Below, in pieces: positions 5,961 to 63,185 of a stretch of DNA of 64,000 nucleotides (position 1 is its first letter; each line of letters starts with the position of its first letter). The notes under the pieces were generated by a model. It saw nothing but the letters and a program-made list of their open reading frames with translations. It made no database searches and was not told where the DNA came from. The stretch is from Paludibacter sp. (lineage in GTDB: Bacteria > Bacteroidota > Bacteroidia > Bacteroidales > Paludibacteraceae): the NCBI GenBank assembly GCA_019163375.1, contig JAFLKK010000004.1, forward strand, positions 558,001 through 622,000. Reading direction: 5' to 3'. The translations under genes were made by a program, and so were the position numbers.

Positions 5961-8900
5961 ATGAAACTAAGAAATGAACTTGAACATCGCATTTTAGTCC
6001 TGGACGGAGCGATGGGAACAATGATACAACGTTATAAACTTGCCGAAGCGGATTACCGTGGTGAGCGATTTGCGCAATGGAATAGCCTTGTGAAAGGAAA
6101 TAACGATTTGTTGGTGCTGACTCAGCCCGACATTATAAAAGCAATCCATTCGGAGTACCTGGAGGCTGGAGCCGATATTATTGAAACTAATACTTTCAAC
6201 GCTCAAACCATTTCGATGGACGACTACGGCATGGGATCGCTGGTGCGCGAAATAAATCTGGCAGGTGCGCGATTGGCTCGTCAGGCTGCGGATGAATTTA
6301 CGGCAAAGAATCCGGCTAAACCGCGCTTTGTGGCCGGTGCTGTTGGGCCTACCAACAAAACCGCCTCTATGTCGCCCGACGTAAATAACCCTGCTTTTCG
6401 TGCGGTTAGTTTCGACGATTTGGTGGTGGCATACAAAGAACAAATTCTGGCATTGATTGAAGGTGGCGTTGACGCACTTTTGATTGAGACTATTTTCGAT
6501 ACATTGAATGCGAAAGCGGCTATTTTTGCTGCCGAAGAAGCCATGGCCGAGTTGGACAAACGAGTGGAGATTATGCTCTCAGCGACCGTTGCCGATAAGA
6601 GCGGACGTACGCTTTCGGGTCAAACCATTCGTGCCTTTCTGGCTTCTATCGGTCATGCTAATTTGCTGTCGATAGGACTGAATTGTTCGTTTGGCGCACA
6701 CGATTTAAAACCCTACCTGCAAGAAATTTGCGCTCATTCATCATGGTTTGTAAGTGCATATCCCAATGCAGGTTTGCCCAATCAGTTTGGCGAGTACGAT
6801 GAGTCGCCTGAAATGATGGCAGCACAGGTAAAAGAGTATTTTGATGAAAAACTGGTAAATATTATTGGTGGATGTTGTGGTACTTCACCGGCTCATATTG
6901 CTGCTTATGGTGAATTAATTGAAGGTGCAGAAGTTAGAAAAATAAAAGTACAAAGCAACAGCTTGATATTATCAGGGTTGGAGCACCTGGAAATCACCTC
7001 ACCCCTAACATTTGACCTCTCCCCTAACCCCTCTCCCGAGGAGAGGGGGACAAGACCCGGGTACTACACAACCGATGCTGAAAACTGGAAATTCTTACAG
7101 CCTATCGCCAAAGAATTACGTCATAATCAAACTGATGCTGAAGATAAACTTTGGCAGGCACTTAGACGGAATAGCACCGGTTATAAAATTAAACGTCAAC
7201 ATGTAGTTGATGGTTATATTGCAGATTTTATTTGTATTGAGAAACGAGTTATAATTGAGATTGATGGAGGAGTTCATTTATCAACAGAACAAAAAAGCAA
7301 GGATGTCGAACGTTCAAGAGTTCTAAATACTCAGGGCTGGGAAGTTATTCGCTTCACAAACGAAGAGGTGTTGGATAAAGTCTCGATAGTAGTGGAAAAA
7401 ATAAAAAATATACTAGAGAGCAAACCAACTCCACCGCGAAATTCTACTACAACCAACGTTCCCCTCTCCTCGGGAGAGGGGTTAGGGGAGAGGTCAGACT
7501 TAGAACAGCAGGCAGTGAGGTCCTTATTCGTCAACATTGGTGAACGTTGTAACGTGGCAGGATCTCGTAAATTTCTTCGTTTGATAAATGAAAAGAAATA
7601 CGAAGAAGCGTTGGGGATAGCACGTAAACAAGTAGAGGATGGCGCTCAGATTATTGACATCAATATGGATGATGCCATGTTGGAGTCGAAAGAGGAGATG
7701 GTTACTTTTCTACATTATGTGGCTTCCGAACCGGAAATTACGCGTGTGCCCATCATGATCGACTCTTCTAAGTGGGAAGTTATCGAGGCCGGACTGAAAT
7801 GTTTGCAAGGCAAGTGTGTTGTCAACTCTATCAGTTTAAAAGAGGGTGAGGATGATTTCCTTGCTAAAGCACGCAAGATTCGTGCTTATGGCGCTGCTGC
7901 TGTGGTGATGGCTTTTGATGAAAAAGGGCAGGCCGATAGTTTCGAACGCAAGACGGAGATATGTACCCGGGCTTATCATTTATTAGTCGATAAAGTTGGT
8001 TTTCCACCCCAAGACATTATTTTCGACCCTAATATTCTTGCCATTGCAACCGGTATCGAGGAGCATAATAATTATGGAGTAGACTTTTTAAACGCTACCC
8101 GTTGGATTAAGAATAACTTACCTTACGCCAAGATAAGTGGCGGTGTCAGTAATCTGTCCTTCTCGTTTAGAGGAAATGATACCGTTCGTGAAGCTATTCA
8201 CAGCGTATTCTTGTATTATGCCATCAAAGAAGGCATGGATATGGGTATCGTGAATGCAGGTATGTTACAGATTTATCAGGACATTGAACCGGAACTGTTG
8301 GAGCATGTGGAAGATGTGGTACTCAACCGCCGACCGGATGCTACTGAGCGTATGATTGTTCTAGCCGAGAAAATAAAAAATCAGGCTACAGGAGTGAAAG
8401 AAGAAGTAGCGGATGAATGGCGTTCACGCCCTTTGCAAGGCCGACTGGAATATGCATTGATAAAAGGTATCAGCGAGTTTTTGGAAGAAGATTTGGCCGA
8501 AGCCTTGAAAGTGTACGACTCTGCTATTGAGATTATCGAGAAACCGCTGATGGGTGGAATGAATATCGTAGGTGATTTATTTGGCGACGGAAAAATGTTC
8601 TTACCTCAGGTGGTAAAAACAGCACGCACCATGAAAAAGGCCGTGGCTATTCTGCAACCCGTTATTGAAGCAGAGAAAGTGCCCGGACAAAGTTCATCGG
8701 CAGGCAAATTTCTAATTGCTACCGTGAAAGGCGATGTGCACGATATTGGTAAAAACATTGTGGCCGTGGTATTGGCCTGTAATAACTTCGAAGTGATTGA
8801 CCTGGGAGTGATGACGCCAACCGAAACCATTATACGCCGAGCGATAGAAGAAAAGGTTGACATTGTAGGCCTGAGTGGTTTGATTACCCCTTCGCTGGAA

Positions 8901-9209
8901 GAAATGACCATAGTGGCTGCCGAAATGGAGAAAGCCGGACTGAAAATACCGATCCTGATTGGTGGCGCAACGACATCAAAGATACATACAGCTGTGAAAA
9001 TCGCCCCCAACTACAGTGGAGCCGTAATTCACGTAAAAGATGCATCCGTCAATACGCATGTGGTGGCGCAGTTGATGAGTGCCAAAAATCAAGTGGAGTA
9101 CAAGGCCGGAATTGCCGCAGAATACGAAGTGTTGCGTCATAAACAAACCAAAAAGCCCGATTTGATCTCGCTGGAAAATGCGAAGAAAATGAAACCGAAC
9201 TTATTCTGA
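5961..9209 (+). CDS. metH: Cobalamin-dependent methionine synthase with in-frame DUF559 nuclease insertion
   Basis: MetH moves a methyl group from methyltetrahydrofolate to homocysteine through cobalamin. The 1082-aa frame has a homocysteine module (zinc ligands Cys242, Cys305 and Cys306 in GLNCSFG and GGCCGT), a pterin module starting at [17 protein letters not shown], and cap and B12 domains with the cobalt ligand His927 in GDVHDIG. It ends soon after the B12 domain, without the AdoMet activation module found in E. coli. Residues 352-512 are foreign: a DUF559 nuclease-like domain between two palindromic peptides (PNPSPEERG and [11 protein letters not shown]), placed exactly in the linker between the homocysteine and pterin modules. 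Without it the protein would be about 921 aa. The frame is uninterrupted, so the enzyme is probably functional. Confidence 0.93.
7014..7048 (+). repeat. Left 35-bp inverted repeat of the metH element
   Basis: Starts GACCTCTCCCCTAACCCC and ends with a hairpin of CCCCTCTCC and GGAGAGGGG around a 3-nt CGA loop. It is the exact reverse complement of 7461-7495. It translates to [12 protein letters not shown] within MetH. A second partial copy, CCTCACCCCTAAC, lies just before it at 6997-7009. Confidence 0.9.
7461..7495 (-). repeat. Right 35-bp inverted repeat of the metH element
   Basis: Exact reverse complement of the left repeat. It contains the same 9-bp-stem hairpin and ends GGTTAGGGGAGAGGTC. 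In the MetH frame it reads [12 protein letters not shown]. Confidence 0.9.
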
Positions 9210-12870: not shown

Positions 12871-13036
12871 AACAACTGCTGTTGAAACGCTATGTGTCAT
12901 TTGCTGACTGATCCCGATAATTCTGGACAAGCTGTGCATTCCGGCAGTTTTGCTCCTGCCTGCCGCAGGCAAGCCCGCATTCACTTTGTCCGTCAGCTGA
13001 CGGACAAATACCTATAACCTCTGTCGTTAGGGGCTA
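12871..13036 (+). repeat. attC-like element 2
   Basis: The right end GTCGTTAGGGGCTAG (R' at 13026-13032) and the centre (GCCTGCCGCAGGC, then TTTGTCCGTCAGC with its reverse complement) match its neighbours. The left arm is diverged: it reads GCTGTTGAAACGCTATG where the others read CCCTAACACACGCTATG. This cassette also holds two genes rather than one, consistent with loss of an internal site or recombination. Confidence 0.5.
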
Positions 13037-14016: not shown

Positions 14017-14140
14017 AACCAGCCCCTAACACACGCTATGGGCACAGGCTGGCTGACGTGCATTTAGCAGGTTTTGCTCCCGCATTCACTTTGTCCGTCA
14101 GCCGACGGACAAATGCCCATAGCCCGGTCGTTATGTGGCA
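14017..14140 (+). repeat. attC-like element 3
   Basis: The best-formed copy. The left arm CCCCTAACACACGCTATGGG faces the right arm TGCCCATAGCCCGGTCGTTA; GCTATGGGCA pairs perfectly with TGCCCATAGC, and TAAC with GTTA, as in attC L and R boxes. The centre holds the hairpin TTTGTCCGTC/GACGGACAAA. R' reads GTTATGT at 14130-14136. Confidence 0.6.
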
Positions 14141-46924: not shown

Positions 46925-47070
46925 TTCGTAATCGAGTTTCCTCGGCAGTCGAATAGGTGAAATATAAAAAATAGATTGCATTTAAACCTCTCTGCAGTCG
47001 CGGCTGTAATAAGTTTCGACCAATTTGTGCACGTGGAACACATAATCAATTTTAAACAAAAAATAAAACA

Positions 47071-60564: not shown

Positions 60565-60709
60565 TTTTGAAATGTGTGCAATAAATTTTCCTACTCGTCA
60601 GGCTTTTCAGTTCCGCCCCTGTTTTTTAGTGGTTTTGGTCTCCACATATTGTTTTACTTTCTTTTGGCTGTTACGGTTTACATAAACTGTGCCAAGAAGC
60701 TAATTCTCT

Positions 60710-62744: not shown

Positions 62745-63185
62745 TTATTACTTGTTCAGGTTGGCTATTCCTCCGTTGAGGTGGATTACTCGTCCGATGA
62801 GGTATATTATTCCTCCGTTGAGGTGGATTACTCGTCCGATGAGGTATATTATTCCTCCATTGAGGTAGATTACTTCTCCGATGAGGTCTATTATTCCTCC
62901 GTTGAGGTTCAACAACCATACCGTGGGGTTCCTCTACTCAAAATTGGGGTCTTCTAACCCCAAGGATGGGGTTCTTGATAGGTCGGTTGGGGTTGTATAA
63001 CCTCAATGTAGGGTTGATGAACCGTATTTTAGGGTTGTATAACCTCAACGGATGGTTAATGAACCCCATCGATGCTATTTTACTCCCTTTTGCAGGTGTA
63101 AAGAACCCCGCGTTCGGTGTCGAGATCCGCTCTCCCGGTTTATTTAGAGTGCCTCTTGAAGTCGCACCCCGAATAGGCACGCAAC
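62745..63185. repeat. Degenerate 21-bp tandem repeat array (about 21 units)
   Basis: Units begin at 62745 and every 21 bp up to about 63165. In the first part, units alternate between TATTCCTCCGTTGAGGTGGA and TACTCGTCCGATGAGGTATA (20 of 21 bases shown). Further on the sequence drifts, but the C-C / G-G spacing is kept (AACCTCAATGTAGGGTT, GAACCGTATTTTAGGGTT). Many units can form small hairpins such as CCTC-GAGG or GGTT-AACC. Open frames across it exist on both strands only because the period is a multiple of three. I treat it as non-coding; the region on either side to 62482 and 63415 holds only hairpins. Confidence 0.65.

Follow-up and report, generated by a model that had tools for sequence, protein, structure and literature searches.

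The nuclease-driven parasites of essential genes known to us, introns and inteins, remove themselves from the product of the gene that they occupy. Rickettsia palindromic elements (RPEs) are palindromic and translated in frame inside unrelated protein genes, and the parts of the sources consulted describe units of about 150 bp with a peptide, making no mention of an enzyme (PMC10969869, PMC5656822). REPINs are doublets of inverted hairpin repeats that are dispersed without an enzyme and presented, in the text consulted, as extragenic (PMC3116915). The DUF559/Vsr-like nucleases, such as the gonococcal protein 3hrl and VsrA of Caulobacter, belong to the same domain family as the nuclease discussed here; in contrast to it, they stand alone, and neither palindromes nor embedding in a host protein is described for them in the part of the source consulted (PMC12907096). 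A literature search for DUF559 in combination with inverted repeats or palindromes found no such element within its scope, which lay outside most subscription papers and all preprints.

The elements described here form a real class: they are bounded by palindromes, encode a probable nuclease, are widespread in Bacteroidota and lie in frame inside housekeeping proteins. The founding case is located in metH, within a stretch of 64,000 nucleotides from a Paludibacter sp. genome (hereafter the window, meaning that whole stretch), and comprises the following features:

5961..9209, plus strand: metH (cobalamin-dependent methionine synthase), which contains the element, a single frame of 1082 aa
6996..7009, plus strand: left-end remnant of an element that is older and of a different MetH type (ACCTCACCCCTAAC); these letters begin the elements of L074 and L087 here
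7013..7051, plus strand: left inverted-repeat arm with its own hairpin (CCCCTCTCC/GGAGAGGGG), from repeat search and folding
7101..7415, plus strand: DUF559 (PF04480) domain, a probable nuclease, with D422, E433 and D435, from Pfam, an AlphaFold2 model and a fold match
7458..7496, plus strand: right inverted-repeat arm with its own hairpin, from repeat search and folding
7515..7522, plus strand: right-end remnant of the older element (GTGAGGTC), which precedes SLFVNIG; these letters end the elements of L074, L091 and L093 here

In the Pfam layout of this MetH, the homocysteine module (S-methyl_trans, aa 12-317) is followed by DUF559 (382-485), Pterin_bind (527-765) and then the B12 domains, which agrees with the sequence-only reading of one open metH frame with an insert between the homocysteine and pterin modules. 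The extent of 7014..7495 given in that reading has to be widened, however, as the foreign stretch is larger: 175 residues separate LEI from SLFVNIG, against a few in empty alleles. The elements L074, L087, L091 and L093, found in metH of relatives, are of another type, and since ends of that older type lie outside the newer arms, the window shows a newer element nested within an older one. The newer element measures 484 nt between its outer repeat ends. Its inverted repeat of 39 nt is 97% complementary, with 36 nt perfect, so that the perfect inverted repeats reported earlier are indeed present, and a scan of each window half finds no other pair of repeats within 1200 nt of each other that matches it in both length and exactness. 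Each arm also forms a hairpin by itself, at about -10 kcal/mol (z -2.0 and -2.5), and as RNA the two arms pair into a single long stem (z -11 against shuffles). The insert was checked to be free of any Met and may, as was suggested, be designed to be read through. Apart from its MetH domains, this protein has Pfam matches at E up to 0.001 to nothing but DUF559 and its relative MTES_1575, with no Hint or intein domain. The genome of the window contains only one other DUF559, located in a short frame where a contig ends. Since it has no match to the metE family (Meth_synt_2; control found in 10/14), this MetH is probably its only methionine synthase.

The metH of the genus apparently stops after the B12 domains, no activation domain being present in the Pfam listing of the window MetH, and insert-free whole-frame MetH proteins of the genus are about 910-950 aa long, compared with about 1205-1254 aa for most of the other families in the order. 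Elsewhere in the window, a 24-nt palindrome, TTTGTCCGTCAGC(T/C)GACGGACAAA, occurs twice, 1.1 kb apart (12985-13008 and 14090-14113), an 85-nt inverted repeat (62879-63071) is 72% complementary with 23 nt between its arms, and Rfam matches an S4-Bacteroidia ribosomal leader (46974-47006, plus strand) and a DUF805 RNA (60584-60650, minus strand).

Membership of the inserted domain in DUF559 is indicated by a profile score of 114.9 bits (E 4.1e-32), against a gathering score of 20.6, and by the retention of D, E and D, which we take to be the PD-(D/E)XK triad; the full domain with D422, E433 and D435 had been recognised correctly from the letters. The three residues are invariant in 15 copies and in 58 chosen copies, and 31 of the 32 intragenic copies of the genus retain them, the exception being a PurL copy (L094) that has lost the second Asp. 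A profile search returns 3hrl (1.3e-30) and 3r3p, a mobile intron protein (1.4e-6). With the AlphaFold2 model of the domain (pLDDT 85.6), the only solved folds at E <=0.001 are 3hrl, a DUF559 structure, and then two chains of the homing endonuclease I-Bth0305I; in the alignment to the latter (3r3p) the first Asp is unmatched and the second stands opposite an Asn. When the insert is modelled in its MetH context, confidence is low (pLDDT 50.5), the DUF559 fold is the same as alone and the palindrome-coded stretches fall below 50. The fold and the D/E/D residues would suit a nuclease that cuts the insert-free allele, and the DUF559 domain of the element is a probable DNA-cutting enzyme.

The occupancy of the metH site is patchy among relatives. 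The protein was sought in 60 of them and a tree was built from 28 genus genes, of which 9 are filled, 2 scarred and 17 empty, dispersed over the tree; the scars (L024 and L010) are in-frame palindrome remnants without the nuclease. Filled and empty states require seven changes on the host tree, and their clustering is barely above that of shuffled labels (as low in 60 of 500 shuffles for 'empty' and 157 of 500 for 'filled'). The sister of the window on this tree, G024 (support 92/89), carries a scar, and the sisters G013 and G025 (support 100/99) have different element types at the identical place. 'Empty' is defined by adjacent matches and short frames for G030, G034 and G006, and by junctions checked by eye for the others; five loci yielded no junction (L029, L030, L032, L033 and L035). 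The idea that all related genomes share the insert at this site, with no copies in other genes, is contradicted, since insert-free alleles, scars and copies in further genes are all found among relatives.

Within the genus, PF04480 is matched in 30 of 40 genomes. From 81 places, the window included, 8 partial or divergent ones were dropped (G018:C237 is left out), and the remaining 73 copies are divided into 32 inside long frames and 41 in short frames. The hosts identified by NCBIfam are MetH, IleS (two sites), ValS, LeuS, PurL and UvrA, and those identified by Pfam are a type-ISP methylase, an N6_N4 methylase and a DUF5107/TPR protein. One IleS frame of 1442 aa (L065:4242-8567, G023) contains two DUF559 elements of different lineages, both of its sites being filled. 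Five non-metH sites were surveyed in 26 genomes, with states given for the matches listed: PurL is filled in 6, without nuclease in 18, hidden by N in 1 and not found in 1; LeuS is filled in 5, without nuclease in 19 and not found in 2; ValS is filled in 3 and without nuclease in 23; the second site of IleS is filled in 3, without nuclease in 22 and not found in 1; and the first site of IleS is filled in 2, has mini-elements in 4, neither in 19 and was not found in 1. An allele scored as without nuclease may still hide a small scar, as does LeuS of G025, where C116:7699-8052 holds a palindrome match at C116:7891-7923. All 19 filled aminoacyl-tRNA synthetase and PurL alleles among the matches listed are one open frame each, and no second, insert-free copy of the host was found in their genomes, again among the matches listed. 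Nor does any of the 52 short-frame copies, from the genus and the named genomes together, represent an out-of-frame interruption of a host in the set.

At each of these five sites, a short host loop of 2-14 codons is replaced by the element: EQADGEK in PurL, NVKGQDFNF in LeuS, EGEDGFA in ValS, 2-14 residues at the first site of IleS and NKELIDNHTN or the like at the second. In MetH, a few residues are replaced. These loops are presumably hairpin tips or linkers of the host enzymes. In the proposed comparison with insert-free relatives, which are not close ones, the host loop is seen to be replaced, and a target duplication of the kind left by insertion sequences or MITEs was not recognised. 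Elements without the nuclease exist too. In-frame mini-elements of 99-129 nt lacking DUF559 occupy the first IleS site in G021, G013, G028 and G002, both arms being well preserved in two of them (L080 and L084), and a two-palindrome insert lies in frame within a frame of at least 669 aa in G028 (L360). Several consecutive palindromes surround a DUF559 copy in L085 (G002:C98) and L136 (G005:C44); in G002:C98, three palindromes follow each other at 306 nt (1635, 1941 and 2247), as if a unit had been duplicated inside the type-ISP methylase frame.

Beyond the genus, PF04480 is matched in 222 of 392 genomes of the phylum, and the matches listed include numerous copies within frames of 800-1480 aa as well as numerous short-frame ones. 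A collection of named genomes contains at least 545 confirmed relatives, the best 80 of which were kept. In 68 of these 80 the frame continues for over 120 residues beyond the domain in one direction or both; the set is biased by a query made from in-frame copies and includes two genus loci (L262 and L274). The long-frame hosts among the best 80 represent about 20 protein families. Above the NCBIfam cut-off are IcmF, AroC, a DEXH helicase, Acs, IspF, RecG, Gmk, ArgB, IspG, WecB and RecJ; below it are RlmB-like, LegC-like aminotransferase, alpha-xylosidase-like, CaiB-like and RecB/AddA-like proteins, and seven hosts were named by eye from their residues (L241, L242, L245, L259, L271, L279 and L299). 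The named copies include a second site entered in LeuS and in MetH, and a Prevotella group (IspF, Gmk, RlmB-like, ArgB) in which DUF559 precedes the host protein rather than sitting within it. Two of the best 80 are from outside Bacteroidota (L301, Anaerolineales; L256, Nomurabacteria). A search across Bacteroidota, as suggested at the outset, reveals in-frame copies in many host genes.

The repeats accompany the domain in most of these places. Counted at a score of at least 14, with copies too near the locus end left out, flanking inverted repeats are present in 27 of 32 long-frame copies of the genus, compared with 1 of 96 control positions taken from those loci, and in 22 of 34 short-frame copies (control 1/102); among the named copies, the figures are 36 of 62 in long frames (control 2/186) and 9 of 9 in short frames (control 0/27). 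What had been seen at one locus, a palindrome-bounded, nuclease-encoding insert in frame in a host protein, recurs in many hosts. As for carriers, phages offer only distant relatives (the best-ranked viral contig has 42% identity over the domain, with a maximum of 48% over part of it), and relatives on plasmids and phages remain below 60% identity. A defence system was likewise set aside, the PADLOC matches being weak (best 3.5e-5).

Element lineages follow the host site. When 181 copies are placed on a tree, the host-site labels need 49 changes, compared with 111 when shuffled and a minimum of 36 (L262 and L274, duplicates of genus contigs, were dropped from the trees and L229 was omitted from the clade test). 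The copies of PurL, ValS, IcmF and the first IleS site form one group each. The LeuS hairpin copies do not, a tree with 30 of them held as a single clade being rejected (p-AU 6e-49, quick tree), so that unrelated lineages entered the same LeuS loop. Copies of one lineage also occur in different genes. The element type of the window groups with LeuS copies of one Dysgonamonadaceae, one Prevotellaceae, one Tannerella and one Bacteroidales genome, with a support (82-83) that is not strong, and this grouping likely reflects a jump between genes. Moreover, a MetH-type element lies within a TPR protein of G024, whose relatives are without the element or, in G035, show a palindrome scar in the corresponding position.

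The insert is younger than the surrounding gene in the best same-site pairs. The dS of DUF559 is 0.13 in ValS (L066/L071), against 0.90 and 0.81 in the host flanks, 0.47 in PurL (L073/L082), against 1.68 and 1.43, and 0.35 in LeuS (L088/L090), against 1.17 and 1.77; it lies under that of both host flanks in 12 of 16 same-site pairs. Silent-codon identity in the same three pairs is 90/97 against 254/395 in the flanks (ValS, p 3e-9), 79/97 against 286/514 (PurL, p 9e-7) and 71/88 against 244/426 (LeuS, p 4e-5), and these three best p-values survive correction for 138 pairs. Altogether, silent identity is higher in DUF559 than in the flanks in 104 of 138 pairs and in 22 of 36 independent pairs (Wilcoxon p 0.014), with the reservation that pairs were ranked by DUF559 similarity, which favours such a signal, and that older pairs, near the level of unrelated copies (0.45), are little informative. 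In the best pairs, the low silent divergence of the insert relative to its host gene means that the element moved between species once the hosts had split. Horizontal spread into the same site, a feature of homing elements, is accordingly seen in the best pairs, the signal being absent in 14 of 36 independent ones. The dN/dS of DUF559, which ranges over 0.07-0.25 where it is finite (15 pairs), is well below 1 and exceeds that of the host flanks (0.02-0.11).

We consider it fairly probable that this is a mobile element, consisting of inverted C-rich hairpin repeats round a DUF559 gene, that sits in frame in loops of housekeeping proteins as an unspliced passenger domain. The best reading of the sequence comparisons, held with the same degree of belief, is that of an unspliced, homing-like parasite. 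In such a scheme, the nuclease would be made as part of the host protein and would cut the element-free allele, or DNA at hairpins, whereupon repair from the filled copy would paste the element in. The need for a host gene that is present only once would keep the element in frame and in a loop, new genes would be seeded by less frequent cuts elsewhere, and copies losing the nuclease might persist as palindrome pairs or single palindromes. A bolder version, to which we lean slightly less than to its contrary, would make it a self-propagating unspliced homing element in which a needed enzyme is fused to a nuclease, the repeats serve both as DNA ends and as peptide linkers, and tolerant loops of LeuS, IleS, ValS, MetH and PurL are lasting addresses across the phylum. 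With inteins and group I introns (I-Bth0305I) the element has in common conserved single-copy hosts, site-tied lineages, horizontal spread into the same site and a nuclease. It differs from them in that it has no intein domain, its frame is open throughout, nothing is seen to remove the insert, and its ends are inverted palindromes.

The strongest competitor, which we nevertheless regard as unlikely, is transposition of the REPIN kind: DUF559, or a trans-acting enzyme such as a Y1/RAYT transposase, would read single-strand hairpins and copy palindromes, and selection would let the in-frame copies in needed genes survive, no homing between alleles being required. The arms do fold as hairpins, and palindromes do occur elsewhere. 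An arm-model search of 40 genomes, in which 150 candidates per genome were scored, detects them in 30 genomes at E 0.01 (0 to 48 per genome among the candidates scored). G028 stands out with 68 matches at E 0.1, as inverted doublets and singles, and the window's own genome has few (7 matches). Inverted hairpin doublets dispersed in a genome, as in G028, are what REPIN/RAYT systems show in the text consulted, from which the present element differs by having DUF559, not a tyrosine transposase, between its repeats, and by the many full copies inside protein genes. A lineage found in different genes, such as the MetH type in the TPR protein of G024, would also suit transposition. The number of palindromes tracks that of DUF559 copies (rho 0.55, p 2e-4) and equally that of Y1 transposases (rho 0.55); given genome size and the other enzyme, rho is 0.35 for DUF559 (p 0.03) and 0.25 for Y1 (p 0.13), which gives this competitor some room. 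Y1_Tnp is present in 33 of 40 genus genomes. However, a palindrome end lies in the Y1 frame or within 300 nt in none of the 11 Y1 loci examined from a longer list, and two genomes with elements have no Y1_Tnp match, G006 and G021, the latter with 2 elements and 11 palindromes. A Y1 transposase acting in trans was rejected on these loci, despite the correlation. Moreover, random transposition does not predict lineages tied to one host site. A tight pairing of palindrome type with DUF559 type was not upheld either, being only partial: dispersed palindromes share the type of the resident element in G028 (19 of 30 examined), and G005 contradicts it.

Four of the 40 genomes have palindromes without a DUF559 match; two of them, G011 with 23 and G026 with 17 palindromes, may have elements without a resident enzyme, or the gaps of fragmented assemblies. 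Y1_Tnp domains of the RAYT-like kind are themselves found in frame, in proteins of 783-1336 aa, before GGFDVVIGNPPY, presumably a methylase motif (L493 in G017, L494 in G022, L495 in G024 and L496 in G035); Y1_Tnp inside long frames may represent another enzyme class that behaves likewise.

Passive spread, in which filled alleles would pass between species by ordinary homologous recombination and DUF559 would be a tolerated or host-useful passenger with its nuclease uninvolved, is less probable still, and we doubt it. It can draw on the low dN/dS of the domain and on the ValS pair L066/L071, where the right flank is shared over about 100 codons (80/94 codons within 100, 28/47 beyond), as in any recombination tract. 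This is the only clear co-conversion tract, in one pair of 32; PurL L073/L082 has at most a mild rise in the left flank (57/83, then 23/50), and the LeuS pair L088/L090 combines a young insert with no young flank, which passive spread would not lead one to expect. Nor would it account for unrelated lineages entering the same LeuS loop, or for hairpin inverted repeats flanking most copies at any site. Over 32 filled-filled, 71 empty-empty and 108 filled-empty pairs, the pooled test reveals no co-conversion excess (synonymous identity near filled sites is 0.61 on the left and 0.53 on the right, and far from them 0.53 and 0.57), so that co-conversion was abandoned as a general signature. The early proposal of a homing- or intein-type parasite without splicing, against which this pooled result counts, is on the whole indirectly supported by site-tied lineages, inserts younger than the host gene in the best pairs, patchy occupancy, different types in sister species and a fold whose nearest solved match, after a DUF559 structure, is a homing endonuclease.

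An old vertical domain insertion with many losses, retained for a function in the host, is very improbable: same-site copies do form clades in the genus (PurL, LeuS, ValS) and in-frame scars attest losses, but in the best pairs the insert has diverged far less at silent sites than the host gene, sisters carry different types, the arms in the window are near-perfect and the tree is patchy. An assembly or annotation artefact has a negligible chance, since, although many relatives are metagenome bins, N runs lie at the site in L086 and L190 and the metH frame of G031 is broken upstream of the element, intragenic copies recur in named records that carry no MAG label: Gillisia mitskevichiae DSM 19839 and G. 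marina (LeuS), Winogradskyella sediminis DSM 28134 (MetH), Segatella baroniae DSM 16972 (before Gmk), Marinilabilia salmonicolor (IleS) and Flavobacterium difficile (RecG).

Compared with RPEs as the consulted sources portray them, the element is likewise palindromic and in frame in protein genes, and the mini-elements of IleS (99-129 nt) are RPE-like; the full element differs in its length of 484 nt, its nuclease domain and its site-tied lineages, a distinction drawn from the descriptions. Fitting homing elements, RPEs and REPINs in part, and lacking a defining feature of inteins, RPEs and REPINs alike, the element is therefore filed under none of them. It appears to work most like a homing element, and the class looks like an undescribed kind of genetic parasite.

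Unlike introns and inteins, this parasite seems to stay in the product of its host gene. The annotation of the enzymes concerned is to be corrected, in that the DUF559 domain is a passenger and not part of the host enzymes. In addition, the element would supply palindromic repeats that lie in frame, as RPEs do, with an enzyme. If the nuclease drives the spread, the class would be a natural gene drive that needs no splicing; it would be a means by which universal enzymes gain inserted domains, and its occupied sites would constitute a natural list of the loops of LeuS, IleS, ValS, MetH and PurL able to accommodate a folded domain of about 110 residues.
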